From contig NZ_PJNH01000001.1 in NCBI RefSeq assembly GCF_002844535.1, positions 992,001-1,056,000 on the forward strand: 64,000 bases of DNA, in the 5' to 3' direction. Below the pieces are notes generated by a model. The model was given only the letters and a program-made list of their open reading frames with translations, made no database searches and had not been told where the DNA came from. This document shows, piece by piece, positions 14,247-59,333 of the stretch. This DNA is from Halalkalibacillus sediminis. GTDB taxonomy: Bacteria > Bacillota > Bacilli > Bacillales > Alkalibacillaceae. The translations under genes and the position numbers were made by a program. Numbering within the stretch: the first letter of the stretch is position 1; every line of letters starts with the position of its first letter.

Positions 14247-14264
14247 GGTAATTTAAATTTAATG

Positions 14265-14285
14265 GCGTCCCAGGAGCGATTCGAA
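14265..14285. other. Decayed attachment site (tRNA-Arg 3' end fragment)
   Basis: Twenty-one bases are identical to the first part of the attL and attR cores (the 3' end of tRNA-Arg). The match then breaks up but continues weakly: TTCAGGTTTG...AGTTGAG here against TTCAGATTTG...AGTTGAG just inside attL at 17661-17687. This reads as the attL of an older, related prophage. Confidence 0.6.
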
Positions 14286-14355
14286 AGCCTGACCTTTTAG
14301 GTCTAGCATTCAGGTTTGTGTAGTTGAGTCACATTCTTATAAACCACTTATACTT

Positions 14356-15343: not shown

Positions 15344-15643
15344 GGTCAATCTCCTTAAATATTTTAAAATATACACTCTTCTCTATCTTGAACTGACTTT
15401 TTATTTTTATTCCAGCATATTTAAGGAAAATAATGTTCATAATCTTTTAAGTCAAAGTTATCTTAATGAAAAAAAGAGTGCCTCCAATTAATGGCTTCTC
15501 TCTTTATATCATGATATTCAAACATTCATTTACCTTGATAGTTGTAATTAATTTATAACACCAATTTGTTCTTGATTTCTTCATTATTATTTAAATTGTA
15601 GTATTTAAACTACTGCTAATGTTCTACCAGAGCAATCTCGCTA

Positions 15644-15652
15644 TGATATAAT
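15644..15652 (+). promoter_or_regulatory. Extended -10 promoter for riboswitch-receiver gene (relic copy)
   Basis: TGATATAAT (TGn plus TATAAT at 15647-15652). The same CTATGATATAAT stands at the equivalent place before the prophage copy (46192-46200). No clear -35 is seen, as expected for an extended -10 promoter. Confidence 0.6.
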
Positions 15653-15699
15653 TAGTAAAAGCTGTACTTGCCAGGGGCCCTGCTCTTGGCTTTTTAAAA

Positions 15700-15780
15700 A
15701 CTTAAAGGGCAAACCTTACGAAAGTAAGAGACGCAAAGCCACGGACCTAAGGACTTCTATGGTAGCCGGGCTGCAATCAC
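15700..15780 (+). ncRNA. Cyclic di-GMP-I riboswitch (GEMM), relic copy
   Basis: The conserved aptamer elements appear in order: GGGCAAACC, a GAAA-capped hairpin (CTTACGAAAGTAAG), GACGCAAAGCCACGG, CCTAAGG as tetraloop receptor, and ATGGTAGCCGGGCTGC. This matches the c-di-GMP-I consensus closely. Downstream, AATCAC (15775-15780) can pair with GTGATT (15802-15807), which overlaps the ribosome-binding region of the receiver gene. This suggests translational control; the direction of the switch is not known. Confidence 0.92.
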
Positions 15781-15801
15781 TTGTCCCTTTCTTGATGGAA
15801 G

Positions 15802-16173
15802 GTGATTTCTATTTATACTGTTGTGTTGGTTGACGATTCATGGTTTATTCGCCAGTGGTTGAAACAAATCTTAGAACAAACGGATCGATATCAGGTCATT
15901 GCTGAATCCTCAAATGGCAGAGAGGCTCTTCCTATCTATAAAAAGCACCATCCGGATATAGTAATTATGGACCTCATTATGGATGATTTAGATGGATTTC
16001 AAACGTTGTCACTTATGAAAAGACTATTTCCAGATGCTAAAGTCATCATGTGTTCTTCTCTAGCCCAACCTCATATCATCCAGCGATGTTTGGATTTAGG
16101 AGCAAAAGACTTTATAGAAAAACCATACTTTGAAGACCTCACTCGAAAATTAGATAAAGTGTTGATCGACTAA
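15802..16173 (+). CDS. Stand-alone response-regulator receiver domain (CheY-like), relic copy
   Basis: A 123-residue protein that is one receiver domain with no output domain. Acid pocket D11-D12 (VLVDDSWF), phospho-acceptor D57 (VIMDLIM), S85 (IMCSSLAQ) and K107 (FIEKPYF) are all present, so it should be phosphorylated. It is about 81 percent identical by my count to the prophage copy at 46352. It is controlled by a c-di-GMP-I riboswitch. The start is unusual: GTG at 15802 lies inside the GGAAGGTGA ribosome-binding motif, and ATT at 15811 has better spacing. CheY, Spo0F or adaptor-like roles are possible. Confidence 0.85.
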   Translation: MISIYTVVLVDDSWFIRQWLKQILEQTDRYQVIAESSNGREALPIYKKHHPDIVIMDLIMDDLDGFQTLSLMKRLFPDAKVIMCSSLAQPHIIQRCLDLGAKDFIEKPYFEDLTRKLDKVLID

Positions 16174-16198
16174 GCCAGTAAAAATCTGGCTTTTATTT
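16173..16198 (+). terminator. Terminator after relic receiver gene
   Basis: AGCCAG, seven-base loop, CTGGCT, then TTTATTTTTT. Confidence 0.8.
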
Positions 16199-16275
16199 TT
16201 TGCTTTTTTAGTCATTCGCCCATACATCAAGAAATTAGGAACCTAAACTGACGTTAAAAACTCAGGAGGAATTTC

Positions 16276-17582: not shown

Positions 17583-17603
17583 TTAAAACGTTATTTTTTT
17601 AAG

Positions 17604-17651
17604 AGCGTCCCAGGAGCGATTCGAACGCCCGACCGACAGCTTAGAAGGCTG
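17604..17651. other. attL core
   Basis: 48 bases identical to 59258-59305 (attR), containing the 3' half of tRNA-Arg up to the anticodon arm. Here the tRNA is truncated and not functional. Confidence 0.93.
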
Positions 17652-43290: not shown

Positions 43291-44379
43291 TTATTTATAG
43301 TACTTAATTAGCTCATTATTTGATAGACCAATTCCAAATGAAGATAGTTTACTATTTTTTTGAGTGAATAAATAATTTAGCATCTCTTTTTTGTCTTCCT
43401 TATTGCCATGGTGTATACGCCGGTGGCAGTTTGGGCATAAAGAAACTATATTTCCCGGCACATCTAAACTGTATTTAAAATCTTCTTGAGCTCCCATAGG
43501 TATAAGATGATGTGCTTCCACAAAATTTTCTCCTGTTCTGGGAGAAACAAAAGTTTTGTGAGAGCTGTCAAATTCACATTTATAATTAGCTAGCTTTAAA
43601 GCCTCCTTAGCCTTGCCAGGATTCCTGGAATAGGACTCTCTATTTCCCCCTTTTTTTGGAGGGGCAGTTTGCGGCTGTTCCGTCGTCTTTGTGGGCTCTG
43701 AAATATAAATGTCCTCTTGAAATTTAGTATCGCTAATTTCATCTTGGTAAACTATGTTATTAATAACTTCTTCTAACTCTCTTCTTGCAATAAACCTTTT
43801 TATATTATCTAATCCAACTAATAATTCTCTCAAGTCCCTTAGCAAATCACTTTCACTAAAATTATTAAATTCATAAAATTTTGCGCAAATATTCGCTGCC
43901 TTATAGTACCTAGCATTATTCGTATGTGACTGCAAATCTATATTTACTAGGGGAAATTTATTTAAGGGTAGATCTATATCATTCCTCATGAAGCTGGAGA
44001 TATAGGTCATTTTTTCTTTTGGATTGTTATTTTTAAACTTGTTATCTAAATAGGAAGTTCCTTGATTTAAAGAAAGATAAAAACCATCCATTTCTTTACG
44101 GAATAGAAAAACTATATAAAAGCCATTTTGAGCACTCTCTGAAATATCTCGGTCTAAAATAGCGATCCAAGGTGTCAAAGTTAAGTTACCTGAACCATAT
44201 GATCCATATATTTTGAAATGTTTATTATCTAAGCTTAAGTCTTCATATAAATTTTGGGGGATCTTTTTTGTTATTAGATCCCCTATATAATGCTTGCTGG
44301 GTTCTCTAGATGATAAATAGAACTCACCATAATCACTCATTACTTTACTTAATGAACTACTTAATATATTTCTAGCCAT
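43291..44379 (-). CDS. MrcB-N domain plus HNH nuclease (type IV restriction-like)
   Basis: About 362 residues. The N-terminal half (about 1-185) matches the MrcB N-terminal DUF3578 domain: FYLSSREPSKHYIGDLI, then IYGSYGSGNLTLTPWIAIL and FYLSLNQGTSYL. The C-terminal HNH has CEFDSSHKTF, VEAHHLIPM and SLCPNCHRRIHHG. Such fusions recognise DNA, often modified, and cut it. As a prophage gene it would act on rival phages. The ATG at 44379 follows GGGGAGAG. AT-rich like the other cassette genes. Confidence 0.82.
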   Translation of the reverse strand: MARNILSSSLSKVMSDYGEFYLSSREPSKHYIGDLITKKIPQNLYEDLSLDNKHFKIYGSYGSGNLTLTPWIAILDRDISESAQNGFYIVFLFRKEMDGFYLSLNQGTSYLDNKFKNNNPKEKMTYISSFMRNDIDLPLNKFPLVNIDLQSHTNNARYYKAANICAKFYEFNNFSESDLLRDLRELLVGLDNIKRFIARRELEEVINNIVYQDEISDTKFQEDIYISEPTKTTEQPQTAPPKKGGNRESYSRNPGKAKEALKLANYKCEFDSSHKTFVSPRTGENFVEAHHLIPMGAQEDFKYSLDVPGNIVSLCPNCHRRIHHGNKEDKKEMLNYLFTQKNSKLSSFGIGLSNNELIKYYK

Positions 44380-44465
44380 ATGTAAAACTCTCCCCAAACA
44401 TAATTTTTTGACTAAACTTCAACATAACAACGCTCATTGGTTGGCTGGGAGGAAGTAATTTAATT

Positions 44466-45296
44466 CTATAATTTGTTATAACTTTCACGATGAAGCTTCA
44501 AGCAAGTTCTATCTCCTTCCAGTAGGCCATCAATATGATCTTCAAAAAAACTCTTACCTTGTAATAAATCTCCGAACTCTTTCCCTTTAGAGGAGAAATT
44601 AACATTATAAAATAGAAAATAGATTTCATCACTAGATAATTGAGCTCTAAATATACCTCTATAATTATTTTTTTCAACTTCTTTTAAATCGCTTTCTTCG
44701 ATAAATTTTATTATTCTATACATATTCCTAAAATAGTGGCCCAATAGTGGTTCGTATAATATGTAAAATTCATCAAATATAGCTATTAATTTTTCCTTGT
44801 CATTAAAGTTTATTTTATATTCTGGAAAATCATATTTTGTACCATTTATCTCCCCTGCTTGGCTACGATAAACTTTTGAAACTTCAGAATTAGTTTTACC
44901 TTCAAATGCTCTCCACATTTTACTTAATGCTTGTCTGGAAGTATTGTCACCTATTCTAATATTCTCAACTATACTATTGTGTAACTCAATCATATTAAAA
45001 AATGTCGTGTCAAATTGTTGTTTTTTTAGCGCATCGTTAGTGTTTTGTAATTCTTCTTTTTGAGTTTGATAAGTTAAAAATAATAAGATTACGCTTCCAA
45101 GCGTAAATATAGGTACAGTCACCCCTGATATCCAATTACTTACTGAGGAAAAGTATTCAGCATAATTATTAACTTCATTAAATCCATATTTCAATGATGC
45201 TTTTTCAGAAAGAAATTTTGTTAATACAGGAAATATTATCGACAATATAAGACACAATAGGCAAAAAAACATAAATGCCCTAATTTGTTTGCTCAA
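44466..45296 (-). CDS. Putative phage abortive infection protein (AbiC-like)
   Basis: 276 residues. Two N-terminal TM helices (FMFFCLLCLILSIIFPVL and WISGVTVPIFTLGSVILLFL), then a cytosolic helical domain with the family phrases DTTFFNMIELHNSIVENI and LGHYFRNMYRIIKFI, and YRGIFRAQLSSDEIYFLFY. These fit the putative phage abortive infection family (putAbiC). The TTG start lies in the duplicated xtrA 3' end, which provides GAGGGGGAGGAG as ribosome-binding site. Likely a defence gene carried by the prophage. Confidence 0.78.
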   Translation of the reverse strand: MSKQIRAFMFFCLLCLILSIIFPVLTKFLSEKASLKYGFNEVNNYAEYFSSVSNWISGVTVPIFTLGSVILLFLTYQTQKEELQNTNDALKKQQFDTTFFNMIELHNSIVENIRIGDNTSRQALSKMWRAFEGKTNSEVSKVYRSQAGEINGTKYDFPEYKINFNDKEKLIAIFDEFYILYEPLLGHYFRNMYRIIKFIEESDLKEVEKNNYRGIFRAQLSSDEIYFLFYNVNFSSKGKEFGDLLQGKSFFEDHIDGLLEGDRTCLKLHRESYNKL

Positions 45297-45358: not shown

Positions 45359-45982
45359 CTAATTTAGTTTTTTAATAGAAGTCTTTGCGTCATGTTTATG
45401 CCCTACTAACTTCTTGTAAATGAGATCTTCTTTCACGCGTAATATTGTTGATTCACTTTTTTTCATAGTTGCCCTATATTTTTGTCCTGATAAAGATGAA
45501 TAAGTAATTGTCATTATTTCGTCATCTCGAGTTTCATCTGCATTCGTTTCATTTCTAGTCGGAACCAAAACTATTTCTTTTCCCTTTAAGATTTTACGTC
45601 TATATTTATATTCAGTTCTTGCCCCATTCTTCCAAAATTTGTGAAATACTTCTAAATTCAACACCGGATTATTTGTAATATTTTCAACTACAACTGCTTC
45701 TGAAATTTTATCAACTTTTAAAAAAATTTCTTTATTATTGAACAAATTTATGACTTCATGTGTTCTTTCTTTAAAATTAATTATATTACTGGTTTGAAAG
45801 AGGTCTACAATTGCCCTATATTCATAATCTCTGTCTCTCTTTTCCTTTCTTAAACTAAAAAAAATCGTGATCAATACTACAATTATTGGAATTGAAATAC
45901 TTAAAGCATTCCAATCTATCCATGACGCACTATTAGCTGGATTTGAGTTTACTTCAGTTTGAGCTAAATTTAGAAAAATCAA
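45359..45982 (-). CDS. Single-TM accessory protein, 207 residues
   Basis: One N-terminal TM helix (WNALSISIPIIVVLITIFF) and a cytosolic domain with FFSLRKEKRDRDYEYRAI after it. The remaining 150 residues look beta-rich (EAVVVENITNNPVLNLEVF). Not recognised. The TTG start overlaps the xtrA stop in the same way as the AbiC-like gene overlaps the duplicated xtrA end. Low GC. Membership in the defence cassette is inferred from place. Confidence 0.6.
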   Translation of the reverse strand: MIFLNLAQTEVNSNPANSASWIDWNALSISIPIIVVLITIFFSLRKEKRDRDYEYRAIVDLFQTSNIINFKERTHEVINLFNNKEIFLKVDKISEAVVVENITNNPVLNLEVFHKFWKNGARTEYKYRRKILKGKEIVLVPTRNETNADETRDDEIMTITYSSLSGQKYRATMKKSESTILRVKEDLIYKKLVGHKHDAKTSIKKLN

Positions 45983-46176
45983 AACTCCTCCCCCTCATCG
46001 TACTTCACTCGTTTCACCTTGCCTTGATGTGTTATTACTCTCGTCTCTCCATGATCGGGCAAAGGTGTGATTTTCGCTTTCCCATTACAGTATACGATAC
46101 AAAACGGGGAATCTCCTTCAAAATTTACCGAAATTTGTCGTTTTTTCATATCTACTGGTATTTCATGTCCTCGCAA
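45979..46176 (-). CDS. xtrA: XtrA/YqaO-like phage protein
   Basis: 65 residues. The C-terminal half (GKAKITPLPDHGET, HQGKVKRVKYDEGEEF) is the conserved core of XtrA from PBSX and YqaO from skin. Function unknown; found at the border of early and late genes. The TTG start at 46176 has AGGGGG 8 bases upstream. Confidence 0.8.
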   Translation of the reverse strand: MRGHEIPVDMKKRQISVNFEGDSPFCIVYCNGKAKITPLPDHGETRVITHQGKVKRVKYDEGEEF

Positions 46177-46191
46177 TGAGCAGGCCCCCTA

Positions 46192-46200
46192 TGATATAAT
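46192..46200 (+). promoter_or_regulatory. Extended -10 promoter before prophage riboswitch
   Basis: TGATATAAT, identical in form to 15644-15652. It is divergent from xtrA. Confidence 0.6.
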
Positions 46201-46253
46201 AAGTTTCCCGATACTTAGCTGAGGGCACTTGCTCTTGGCTTTTTTTAAAATAA

Positions 46254-46335
46254 AAGGGCAAACCTTACGAAAGTAAGAGACGCAAAGCCACGGGCCTAAG
46301 GAATTTCTATGGTAGCCGGGTTGCAATCACTTGTC
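46254..46335 (+). ncRNA. Cyclic di-GMP-I riboswitch (GEMM), prophage copy
   Basis: AAAGGGCAAACC, CTTACGAAAGTAAG, GACGCAAAGCCACGGG, CCTAAGG and ATGGTAGCCGGGTTGC in order. It differs from the relic copy at few aptamer positions. The downstream leader (AATCAC pairing with GTGATT over the ribosome-binding region) is conserved as well. A c-di-GMP riboswitch within a prophage is uncommon. Confidence 0.92.
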
Positions 46336-46351
46336 CCTTTCCTGATGGAAG

Positions 46352-46723
46352 GTGATTTCTATTTATAATGTTTTATTAGTTGATGATTCATGGTTTATTC
46401 GACAGTGGTTAAAACACATCTTAGCACAAACCGGTCGTTATCACGTCATTGCTGAAACCTCAACTGGTAGAGAGGCTTTACCTTTATATAATGAGCACCA
46501 ACCAGATATAGTAATTTTGGACGTCATAATGGATGGCTTAGATGGCTTTCAAACCTTGTCGCTTATGAAAAGGCTTTTTCCAAGTGCTAAAGTCATCATG
46601 TGTTCTTCTTTAGCCCAAAAACATGTCATCCAGCGATGTTTGGACTTGGGTGCTAAGGATTTTATTGAAAAGCCTTATTTTGATGACCTTATTCAAAAAT
46701 TAGATAACGTTTTAGTAGATTAA
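46352..46723 (+). CDS. Stand-alone response-regulator receiver domain (CheY-like), prophage copy
   Basis: 123 residues, single receiver. D11-D12 (LLVDDSWF), phospho-acceptor D57 (VILDVIM), Ser85 and K107 (FIEKPYF) are kept. It is the only plus-strand gene in the middle of the minus-strand lytic region, with its own promoter, riboswitch and terminator, so it is probably active in the lysogen. Like its relic relative it has GTG inside the ribosome-binding motif or ATT at 46361 as start. It may act on host motility, biofilm or sporulation phosphorelay; this is inference. Confidence 0.85.
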   Translation: MISIYNVLLVDDSWFIRQWLKHILAQTGRYHVIAETSTGREALPLYNEHQPDIVILDVIMDGLDGFQTLSLMKRLFPSAKVIMCSSLAQKHVIQRCLDLGAKDFIEKPYFDDLIQKLDNVLVD

Positions 46724-46745
46724 GCTAGGAATTCTAGCTTTTTTC
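46722..46745 (+). terminator. Terminator after prophage receiver gene
   Basis: AAGCTAG-gaatt-CTAGCTT then TTTTC. Confidence 0.8.
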
Positions 46746-46759
46746 TTTCCACCTTGTTA

Positions 46760-55734: not shown

Positions 55735-56757
55735 TTGACTACTACTTTGAATTTCTATAATTATTATTTTACTTATAATGGTGAGCTTACAAACTACAAA
55801 ATTAGTGACTTTTTTAAATCTTTTATGAGGATCGATGAAACAAAAAGATTAAGAAATTTACCAAAATATGGTGAATTCACACTCTTTGGTGATTATATAC
55901 CTACGAAAAGAGCTGACTTAAAAGCTGATGGTTTTGCGCATAAATTCAGTAACTTCGATAGATTAGTTTATTTAGGTCAATATCGTGATGATAAACCATA
56001 TACTGGAACTAAAGGCAAAGATATTGCGAATGAAATAAAACAAGATGTATTGGAAATTACTCATTGTGCATTCTTTCCAAATTCTCAATTGTTAGTATTA
56101 CCATACAAACATTTTGGAGCAAAAGCAGTTCATTTAGAGAGATATATAAATAGATTTTTACCCTACAATGAGGAAAATGGAGGGTGGCAGTTTTTTTTAT
56201 ACCAAATTGAAGACGGAAAAGGTCTGAGTACTATATTAAGATCAAATGAAATACGGTCAATTGATCTCAAAATAGATGTAACTGGTGATTCGAAGATTGA
56301 AGATTATCTTCCCAAGGACAAATTGTTTAAGGAATTCTTCACTAATTTTTTCAATACCCAAAAAAAAGTTGGATCAAATGTTGGAAGTGTTAATTTTAGT
56401 ACAGGAAGGAAGACTTCTCAACCAATGGACACTAAAAAAATAATATATTTTTTAAGCGAGTCAAAATTAAGTGGTACTATGTTCGAAAGCGCAAAAGTAA
56501 GGTATGTAGATCCGGATACTAAAGAATTGGTTACGACAGATCTAAAACACGAGGGTCAGCTAAGAACTGAGTTAGAACTTAAAGATGGGGAAAACGGAAA
56601 AGAATTCATAGCTAAAAAGATATTAGAAAAATATATAGAAAGTGATAAAATGGGAAGTAATAAATACAAAGAACACAAAGATATAAAAAGGGATTATAAT
56701 AAAGATGAAATTACAACTCACATCACAAAAAATTTTTTAGATAAAAAGAAGGGATAA
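55735..56757 (+). CDS. Cytosolic component of a putative two-gene module, 340 residues
   Basis: TTG start with AAAGGGG 7 bases upstream. The protein is soluble; the N-terminal 140 residues look beta-rich (TLNFYNYYFTYNGELTNYK) with a phrase DVLEITHCAFFPNSQLLVLP that recalls DUF6731 phage proteins; the rest is alpha/beta with a basic C-terminus. I cannot name the family with confidence. It is AT-rich and translated together with the membrane gene that begins one base after its stop. Placement between repressor and integrase is typical of lysogenic conversion or exclusion genes. Confidence 0.55.
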   Translation: MTTTLNFYNYYFTYNGELTNYKISDFFKSFMRIDETKRLRNLPKYGEFTLFGDYIPTKRADLKADGFAHKFSNFDRLVYLGQYRDDKPYTGTKGKDIANEIKQDVLEITHCAFFPNSQLLVLPYKHFGAKAVHLERYINRFLPYNEENGGWQFFLYQIEDGKGLSTILRSNEIRSIDLKIDVTGDSKIEDYLPKDKLFKEFFTNFFNTQKKVGSNVGSVNFSTGRKTSQPMDTKKIIYFLSESKLSGTMFESAKVRYVDPDTKELVTTDLKHEGQLRTELELKDGENGKEFIAKKILEKYIESDKMGSNKYKEHKDIKRDYNKDEITTHITKNFLDKKKG

Positions 56758-56758
56758 A

Positions 56759-57367
56759 ATGACCTTTTTTGAAGACTGGTTTCCTAGTACAACTGTTGTA
56801 CTGTATTACATTTTCACTATATTTTTATCTATAGGTGTATTCCTTACTAACTTAATATCCATAGAATTTTGGAGAACTTTTATCATTCAAATTAACAATT
56901 TTTTTATAGACAATAGTAGTATCTTGTTAACGATAAGCTCTATATTAATTGGTATTTTCTTCACAGTATTTTCAATTCTAGGGAGCCTCAACGTAAACAG
57001 CACTTTTGCTATGATTAGTAGAGAAAATTTTATTAAGCTTATAAGGTTCATTTTATACTCATTCTCCTCTTCAATCTTGTTCCTTTTTATTATAATGCTT
57101 GCTCTTAATTTACCGATTAATATACAGATGTATTTAAATACTTTTATTTTACTTCCGTTGCTGATATATATTTTCTGTTCTTCTTTTAGACTAGGTTTTT
57201 ATTTATTCCTTTTATACAGAAGAGAAATCGGCAATCTGCATAAAAAATTAGAGGACGAAAAGAAGAAAAATAACCATTTTGATGATATACTGCATAGATT
57301 AGATAATTATCTTAGTGATTATGAGGAAAATAAAGAGAAAGAATATTTGGATAAAAATAATGAATAA
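56759..57367 (+). CDS. Four-TM membrane partner of the two-gene module, 202 residues
   Basis: Hydrophobic helices at about 12-32, 50-75, 95-118 and 122-148 (VVLYYIFTIFLSIGVFL, SILLTISSILIGIFFTVFSI, FILYSFSSSILFLFIIMLAL, LLPLLIYIFCSSF). A C-terminal cytosolic coiled coil follows (NLHKKLEDEKKKNNHFDDIL). The ATG overlaps the previous gene's end region. Architecture (soluble sensor plus TM effector) resembles two-gene anti-phage systems, but no known family is recognised. Confidence 0.55.
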   Translation: MTFFEDWFPSTTVVLYYIFTIFLSIGVFLTNLISIEFWRTFIIQINNFFIDNSSILLTISSILIGIFFTVFSILGSLNVNSTFAMISRENFIKLIRFILYSFSSSILFLFIIMLALNLPINIQMYLNTFILLPLLIYIFCSSFRLGFYLFLLYRREIGNLHKKLEDEKKKNNHFDDILHRLDNYLSDYEENKEKEYLDKNNE

Positions 57368-57963: not shown

Positions 57964-59139
57964 ATGGGAAGTGTTGAAAAAAGAGGGAAAAATAAATTTA
58001 GACTGTCTATTGTAACCGGCTATAATGAACGCGGCAATCCAGTCAGGATCAGAAAAACGATAACGGCAAAAAACAAAACTGAAGCTAGAAAAATACTATC
58101 ACAGCTGGAGTCAGATTATCTGACTGATCAATTAATTGAAACCACAGATATGCGCTTAACAGACTTTTACCCCCTATGGCTTGAAAAACACGCACAAGAA
58201 GCTTATTCACCTGGTACGAGAGGTGACTATATCAATATCATTAATAAGCGTATCTTACCTAAATATGGCCACATCAAACTAAAAGACTTTAAAACCATTC
58301 ACATCGTAGACTTTGTAGACGATCTAAAGAAGCCAGGAAGGCGTTTAAATGACGAAGAAGGGTATTTATCCGCATCTACCATAAGAAACTGTTATAAGGC
58401 ATTTAACAGTCTTCTTAAACATGCGCATAAATGGGGATTAATAAAAGCAAATCCTGCAGAAGGGGTTGCCCTTCCCTCAGCTAAGCAGAAACATGACGTA
58501 GATTATTCTTCTGAGATTATATGGAAGATGATTGAACGCATCAGTCACGAAGACATTGAAAAGCAATTGATTTTCTGGACAGCCTTTATTACAGGTTGTA
58601 GACAAGGAGAATTAGCAGCAATCGAAGATCGGCATGTTGTTTTAAAGGATGGAAAGTACGCCATATATATCGAGCAATCTTTAACGGAGGAAAAAGGTAA
58701 AGGATTAGTTCTTAAAAGCATCAAAAATAATGTAGCTGGATACGTAGCCATTCCGGAGCCGTTAGCCGACATGTTGAACAAACAAATTCTTAAGAAACGT
58801 AGAGACAAACTCTTATTGCAAAATCAGTGGGCCTACCCAGGTAAAGTATTTATTTTCTCCAATGAAGTTGGCAAACCCTATCGACCCGATTCCATCAGTC
58901 AATGGTGGATTCGATTTAGAAAAAGAAACGATTTAGGAAATGTCCGCTTTCATGACTTACGGCATTTGTCAGTAACCTATCTCATTCATAAAGGTTTACC
59001 GATTAAAACCATTAGCGATCGTGCGAGACATACAAATATCGGAACCACGATGAATTTATATGGCCATAACATTGTAGAAATTGATCAAGTAGCTGCAGAC
59101 CATTTTGGAGAGTTTTTCACCACGAAAGAAGTAAAATAA
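57964..59139 (+). CDS. int: Tyrosine recombinase, phage integrase
   Basis: 391 residues. N-terminal arm-binding AP2-like domain (about 1-55), core-binding SAM-like domain (about 65-165), and catalytic domain with Arg in TGCRQGE, HDLRH and ARHTNIGTTMNLYGHN giving R, H-x-x-R, H and the nucleophile Tyr. It integrates at the tRNA-Arg 3' end located 120 bases downstream. Starts 16 bases after immA with GGAGGTG. Confidence 0.95.
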   Translation: MGSVEKRGKNKFRLSIVTGYNERGNPVRIRKTITAKNKTEARKILSQLESDYLTDQLIETTDMRLTDFYPLWLEKHAQEAYSPGTRGDYINIINKRILPKYGHIKLKDFKTIHIVDFVDDLKKPGRRLNDEEGYLSASTIRNCYKAFNSLLKHAHKWGLIKANPAEGVALPSAKQKHDVDYSSEIIWKMIERISHEDIEKQLIFWTAFITGCRQGELAAIEDRHVVLKDGKYAIYIEQSLTEEKGKGLVLKSIKNNVAGYVAIPEPLADMLNKQILKKRRDKLLLQNQWAYPGKVFIFSNEVGKPYRPDSISQWWIRFRKRNDLGNVRFHDLRHLSVTYLIHKGLPIKTISDRARHTNIGTTMNLYGHNIVEIDQVAADHFGEFFTTKEVK

Positions 59140-59257: not shown

Positions 59258-59305
59258 AGCGTCCCAGGAGCGATTCGAACGCCCGACCGACAGCTTAGAA
59301 GGCTG
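59258..59305. other. attR core
   Basis: 48 bases identical to attL, here as part of the intact tRNA-Arg gene. Confidence 0.93.
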
Positions 59306-59333
59306 TTGCTCTATCCTGCTGAGCTACTGGGAC
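59260..59333 (-). tRNA. tRNA-Arg (anticodon TCT)
   Basis: Full cloverleaf: acceptor GTCCCAG/CTGGGAC, anticodon loop CTTCTAA, T-loop TTCGAAT. CCA is not encoded. It is the integration site; the prophage restores the 3' end. Confidence 0.95.

Follow-up and report, generated by a model that had tools for sequence, protein, structure and literature searches.

A predicted c-di-GMP-gated receiver cassette in a prophage of Halalkalibacillus sediminis, with counterparts in host-family chromosomes

The window analysed here is a stretch of 64,000 nucleotides of the H. sediminis genome (contig NZ_PJNH01000001.1, positions 992,001 to 1,056,000), and all coordinates below are positions within it. Between about 17.6 and 59.3 kb the window holds an apparently complete prophage, with integrase, RecT, a DnaD-like loader and terminase recognised by PHROGs and a LexA-type HTH protein and a lysin recognised by Pfam. 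In the middle of this prophage, and not at its end, a short unit lies on the + strand amid phage genes of the − strand. The parts of the unit, its left neighbour and the integrase are:

45979–46176, − strand: xtrA-type phage gene (PBSX_XtrA; PF17356, 76.6 bits), left neighbour of the unit
46192–46200, + strand: extended −10 promoter element TGATATAAT, without a good −35; read from the sequence and identical in the copy at 15.7 kb
46217–46240, + strand: hairpin followed by a T-run in the 5′ leader, before the aptamer (terminator-like scan, 10 pairs)
46247–46328, + strand: c-di-GMP-I (GEMM-I) riboswitch aptamer (RF01051, 77 bits)
46325–46330, + strand: proposed anti-Shine-Dalgarno strand AATCAC, partner GTGATT (helix length 6)
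46331–46336, + strand: proposed weak anti-aptamer TTGTCC, partner GGGCAA of the aptamer (free minimum-energy fold of the full leader; p = 0.31 alone)
46347–46356, + strand: Shine-Dalgarno region GGAAGGTGAT, read from the sequence
46361–46723, + strand: stand-alone CheY-like receiver gene (PF00072), with a probable AUU start
46722–46745, + strand: intrinsic terminator, with hairpin and T-run at 46722–46740 (terminator-like scan)
57964–59139, + strand: prophage integrase (phrog_1, 209.5 bits; PF00589)

By covariance-model search of the window, the 46-kb aptamer matched RF01051 over the full model (1–87), its score standing against a gathering threshold of 35 (E = 2.2e-13). The frame behind it, given by ORF calling as 46352–46723 with a GTG start and 123 aa, matched Response_reg (PF00072) at 89.5 bits against a cut-off of 30.2 (residues 7–116 of 123). 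No second domain was found in the protein, which ends with the receiver domain and shows no C-terminal extension. In the alignment its phosphorylation site is complete (acidic pair DD, phospho-Asp, Ser and Lys), and by Pfam match and site residues it is a single-domain, CheY-like response regulator. A sequence-only reading of this DNA had proposed just such an arrangement, namely a c-di-GMP-I aptamer before a stand-alone receiver with all phosphorylation residues kept, forming an independent unit on the strand opposite to its phage surroundings, and was borne out on each of these points. The same reading had given the unit a promoter; the extended −10 element agrees with this, whereas a scan requiring both TTGACA and TATAAT reported nothing for the 46-kb unit. 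The data support the view that the aptamer would control the receiver gene as an independent unit inside the prophage.

The unit lies at the junction of the early and late regions, near an ArpU-like gene and xtrA (PHROGs, Pfam). No kinase or target gene adjoins it. The genome has 13 GGDEF matches, one match to a CheA-type kinase dimerisation domain and a full Spo0A, so that the signal and possible partners are present in the host. Also beside the unit, at 43291–45296 on the − strand, an AbiC/AbiP-like protein is encoded together with a protein that has MrcB_N and HNH domains and weakly matches type IV restriction; judged by these matches, this stretch is a cargo region of the prophage. Adjoining the integrase (55735–57367, + strand), two genes match the candidate phage-defence pair PDC-M67A/B at 172.8 and 74 bits.

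A second copy of the unit lies about 30 kb away, outside the prophage on its attachment side:

15630–16200, + strand: second copy of the unit (limits by homology)
15698–15778, + strand: its aptamer (RF01051, 74.2 bits)
15811–16173 (ATT start) or 15802–16173 (GTG start), + strand: its receiver gene (ORF and homology)
17598–17650, − strand: att copy, the repeated 3′ part of tRNA-Arg (end approximate)
59259–59333, − strand: tRNA-Arg(TCT), the intact gene on the att side (tRNA scan)

The two copies are alike over 574 bp at 83% identity (46178–46748 against 15630–16200), from the −10 region through the terminator, which defines a unit of about 570 bp. In the 5′ leader hairpin of the 15.7-kb copy the 5′ arm is changed and, by eye, pairing is still possible. 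The two receivers share 81% of their residues, and their genes give a dN/dS of 0.14 at a dS of 0.72, indicating that the divergence is old and that both proteins are under purifying selection. A chance aptamer at 46 kb is ruled out by its RF01051 score, the score of the second copy and the dN/dS of the receivers. Fragments resembling tRNA-Arg flank the 15.7-kb copy (14258–14294 and 17598–17634), which suggests stacked integrations at tRNA-Arg around it. This position between tRNA-like fragments led us to reject the view that the 15.7-kb copy is no more than the original host locus; in G009 and G010, by contrast, tRNA-Arg(CCT) and tRNA-Arg(TCT) enclose the unit. The 15.7-kb copy may therefore be part of what is left of an older element. 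The genome carries six c-di-GMP-I aptamers in all, two of them in the window. By reading of the sequence, with no family search, a set of Flp-pilus-type genes, a gene for a repeat-rich secreted protein and one for a short lipoprotein lie behind one each of the other four, and the fourth has no clear gene behind it.

The idea of a singular phage regulator finds no support: the unit is common across host-family chromosomes and present twice in the window. Covariance-model search gave c-di-GMP-I matches in 21 of 22 host-family genomes, 124 in total. When aptamer positions were crossed with receiver matches, 13 of these aptamers had a same-strand receiver immediately behind them; they come from 11 of the 22 genomes (two units each in G000 and G002, one each in G003, G004, G006, G009, G010, G015, G016, G017 and G021). 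Twelve of the 13 units were confirmed in sequence; that of G017 was counted from coordinates and left out of the trees. For the G015 and G010 aptamers the variant RF03167 was the best model, and RF01051 was also passed. Attachment-side chromosomal copies are found in G000, G002 and G006. tRNA-Arg genes adjoin the unit in G009, G010 and G021, and a 3′ fragment of tRNA-Arg adjoins it in G002 and G006. Behind the unit in G003 and G004 is a protein resembling half of the flagellar-region protein YvyF (44.8 bits in G004, under the cut-off of 124; the G003 copy was judged by eye). At order level the receiver search, at 1e-36, hit 139 of 150 genomes, for the most part with CheY-like proteins. An aptamer was looked for at 30 of the best loci (28 from outside the host family); it stood in front of the receiver at six, four of these outside the family. 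A scan of genome contigs gave two distant receivers (30% and 34%); the genus-level search covers one genome only.

We also scanned IMG/VR with aptamer patterns, which gave 82 aptamer-like sites in 81 loci. An Rfam check of 21 of the 81 loci (20 plus L090) was positive for 17; L259 was scanned with our own model R1, and the remainder are covered by the pattern only. A receiver follows the site in six of the 82 cases, including the window's own phage; the others are on contigs 2824469054_000002, whose receiver is the same as that of the G002 prophage, 2636415473_000001, 2728368993_000001, 2508501029_000001 and 3300042934_001015. All six viral contigs (the sixth by eye) carry the unit in antisense, with the early region on one side and the ArpU-like or terminase region on the other; XtrA adjoins it in four of the six. 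The unit recurs, then, at one phage site. It is missing from five of six phages with an xtrA match, and of 80 viral loci that share a related terminase all but that of the window's own phage lack the aptamer; since many loci in both sets are partial these absences are weak evidence, and the single aptamer among the 80 points to rare carriage. Among 50,697 phage records a DNA search with the unit returned no match and a protein search returned only receivers below 60% identity, and for the receiver PHROGs gave only families of unknown function.

Some of these viral loci carry further genes or aptamers of interest. On contig 2636415473_000001 (L268:13166-15472) genes for Mn-catalase (PF05067), DUF378 and DUF3231, families common in spore-formers, lie beside the unit. 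Contig 2728368993_000001 (L204) has a second aptamer, behind which is a 66-aa gene with cysteine pairs; in L202 a relative of this gene is found upstream of the aptamer. Rfam confirmed the c-di-GMP-I aptamer in all five contigs of a different phage group (L189, L193, L197, L205 and L207), and in the last four of these it stands about 10 bases before a 139-aa gene adjoining lysis-type genes.

The prophage of G002, a genome of another genus, sits at the same tRNA as that of the window and is closely related to it (TerL 82%, integrase 77%, RecT 83% and XtrA 75% identical). The receivers of the two prophages are only 45% identical, each being 80–81% identical to the attachment-side copy of its own genome. 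In the tree the phage copy joins the copy of its own genome at 100/97 (G000) and 100/100 (G002/G006 group), and the pairs stay joined at 99/92 and 100/99 when the viral rows are added. Close phage backbones with host-matched receivers imply that the cassette, and not the phage, follows the host, on a small sample of two genera. Similarity between phage and attachment-side copies stops at the limits of the unit both in the window and in G002 (521 bp, 83%), and the simplest reading is that the host-matched phage copies would have arisen by exchange with the attachment-side copy. The dS values of 0.7 (window) and 1.3 (G002) place such exchanges in no recent past.

This kinship also bears on a different account, in which the phage would have picked up a neighbouring host gene at the attachment site and would carry it as a passenger of no use to itself. 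The attachment-side copies in three genomes and the resemblance of the phage copy to the attachment-side copy in two genera are what such an account would predict. Strong purifying selection at synonymous divergences of 0.7–1.3 (dN/dS is 0.09 for the G002 pair) speaks against it, as do the one phage site common to several phages and the mid-prophage position, away from the end where imprecise excision would leave a captured gene. On balance we regard a mere passenger as improbable.

The receivers linked to the riboswitch differ from those of chemotaxis. All 16 riboswitch-linked rows carry DDS, and after the conserved Lys all 16 read KP[YNH]F, against KPF[QDT] in 17 of 17 CheY-clade rows. The 46-kb receiver (KPYF) falls outside this 17-row clade and is thus not a chemotaxis CheY. 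The stretch after the conserved Lys is part of the surface with which CheY contacts its targets, so the riboswitch-linked receivers may differ from CheY in output. Two further receiver rows, from G013 and G018, in which no aptamer was detected, are placed near the riboswitch-linked group.

The relatives begin with ATG or TTG. At that position both window copies read ATT (46361 and 15811), eight bases after AAGG, and two viral contigs, 2636415473_000001 and 2728368993_000001, offer ATT only, with no ATG, GTG or TTG between the upstream stop and the domain. Of 14 units without a terminator behind the aptamer, eight start with ATG, two with TTG and four with ATT (two window, two phage). AUU initiation is rare; infC is a known case. 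The occurrence of ATT where relatives have ATG or TTG makes initiation at AUU likely in the window copies and these two phage copies. The GTG given by ORF calling lies nine bases upstream of the ATT and overlaps the Shine-Dalgarno region; it is a possible start in the window copies. The four ATT cases would allow AUU initiation to be tested beyond the handful of genes known for it.

How ligand binding would be passed on to the gene seems to vary within the family. In six family units (G003, G004, G009, G010, G016 and G021) a T-run 36–47 bases behind the aptamer is consistent with a terminator. By eye, no terminator hairpin was found behind the aptamer in the window copies and phage relatives. 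Downstream sequence complementary to the GGCAAA core of the aptamer is significant in shuffling tests (p < 0.05) in nine of the 14 leaders without a terminator, the pooled p-values coming from related sequences; the longest complement has nine bases (AAATTTGCC). A possible anti-Shine-Dalgarno strand lies 5′ of the anti-aptamer in all nine of these significant leaders. This arrangement suggests that the ligand-bound RNA hides the Shine-Dalgarno sequence, and we think it rather probable that c-di-GMP closes the gene through a translational switch. For the window copies, whose own anti-aptamers give p values of 0.31 and 0.36, the proposal draws mainly on homology. With ligand bound, the aptamer would fold and the sequence just 3′ of it would pair with the Shine-Dalgarno; in the ligand-free RNA the loop sequence would pair with the GGCAAA core and free the ribosome site.

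The same cassette could also work with the opposite sign, c-di-GMP opening translation. Here the bound-state P1 (AAAGG with CCTTT) would take the CTTTCC strand off the GGAAGG of the Shine-Dalgarno. When the aptamer and P1 are enforced together, Shine-Dalgarno accessibility rises from 0.22 to 0.39 in one window copy and from 0.09 to 0.44 in the other, but this P1 was chosen by us, and with the aptamer enforced without it there is no change (0.07 and 0.07; 0.06 and 0.07), so that the two folding set-ups disagree on the sign of the switch. Moreover, the nine other units without a terminator that have a significant anti-aptamer, with an anti-Shine-Dalgarno strand 5′ of it, fit closing. We therefore hold an opening switch to be possible and distinctly less probable than a closing one. 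A very improbable variant has 3′,3′-cGAMP as the ligand: variants of this RNA read either ligand, but within its clan RF01051 gives the best match to the 46-kb aptamer, all 16 aligned aptamers keep the G before CAAA that confers selectivity for c-di-GMP, and the host has its 13 GGDEF matches.

With a closing switch as the preferred mechanism, our best explanation of the unit, which we consider probable, is a lysogenic-conversion cassette ('moron') gated by c-di-GMP, whose receiver works with a host kinase. The unit has the sequence traits of a phage moron, that is, its own promoter and terminator, a host-type gene, an orientation antisense to the phage genes around it and absence from relatives. 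A complete host-type transcription unit would have entered next to xtrA, where the early and late regions meet, in antisense orientation; with its own −10, leader, gene and terminator it should be expressible from a silent prophage. Its aptamer would read host c-di-GMP, and the receiver would then be made at a low level, given the AUU start, and mainly in motile-type cells low in c-di-GMP. Phosphate would reach it from a host kinase, CheA or some other, and it would serve either as an extra CheY with altered output or as a phosphate sink.

Alternatively, the unit could serve the phage's own decision, c-di-GMP informing lysis or lysogeny through the receiver. Its location where the early and late regions meet, close to xtrA and the ArpU-like gene, would suit such a role, as would the fact that lytic transcripts would run antisense through it. 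Yet the receiver has no output domain, the unit has its own terminator, and aptamer-receiver units serve many chromosomes with no phage, so we judge a decision regulator unlikely.

The lysogenic-conversion reading can be extended to a broader and tentative proposal, to which we give well under even weight: that temperate phages of spore-formers hold a host-renewed, c-di-GMP-gated receiver beside xtrA, with AUU as a second, initiation-factor-dependent brake, and thereby set the lysogen's choice between motile, sessile and sporulating life. If so, a phage-encoded replacement part would set the host's lifestyle choice, the phage holding its own version of a host component, and phages would act in c-di-GMP signalling by RNA rather than enzymes. 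A phage copy and a host copy in one genome make natural pairs for testing how phages use a host signalling part.

The unit can be set against several known systems. Like the host-family chromosomal units, the window copies share the aptamer family, the receiver subfamily and the order of parts, but several of the chromosomal units have a terminator behind the aptamer and ATG starts and the window copies have neither. Like CheY, the protein has a single receiver domain and a complete phosphorylation site, and its nearest solved structure is Thermotoga maritima CheY (1tmy, E = 1.1e-22); unlike CheY, it has KP[YNH]F in place of KPF[QDT], lies outside the family's CheY clade (100/99) and has no chemotaxis operon around it. 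A link between c-di-GMP and a CheY-like protein is also made by the Cle proteins, which themselves bind c-di-GMP, whereas here the mRNA would bind it and the receiver is without a C-terminal extension. PMC6200980 names the Cle proteins and mentions two response regulators in operons directly controlled by c-di-GMP riboswitches. A c-di-GMP-related response-regulator system, cmrRST, is found in C. difficile (PMC6837544, PMC12548384); as far as the available text of these papers goes, it is multi-gene and chromosomal with OmpR-family regulators, in contrast to a stand-alone receiver.

The sequence-only reading knew of no described phage regulator of this kind. Phage-borne c-di-GMP-I riboswitches are in fact known already: the C. 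difficile 630 prophages phiCD630-1 and phiCD630-2 carry them (PMC3649979, PMC11477304), and PMC11477304 describes control of a type I antitoxin RNA by them. In these prophages too, host c-di-GMP acts on a phage-borne RNA through a c-di-GMP-I aptamer in a prophage. According to the available parts of these sources the C. difficile aptamers precede prophage genes of the lysis-module region and the antitoxin RNA, whereas that of the window precedes a receiver at the xtrA junction and belongs to a unit found in several phages, with chromosomal counterparts. We found no description of a c-di-GMP-I riboswitch before a stand-alone receiver, phage- or chromosome-borne, in the open-access literature; what appears new is the receiver as gene partner, the site at the xtrA junction and the recurrence in phages.

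Finally, we considered Spo0A boxes as a feature of the units, a reading rejected because TGTCGAA is absent before both window copies. In G002a, G002b, G006 and G015 (L076–L079) the distance from this Spo0A-box-like motif to the aptamer behind it is exactly 38 bases, and Spo0A-box-like sites number six in 20 units against 0.83 expected by shuffling.
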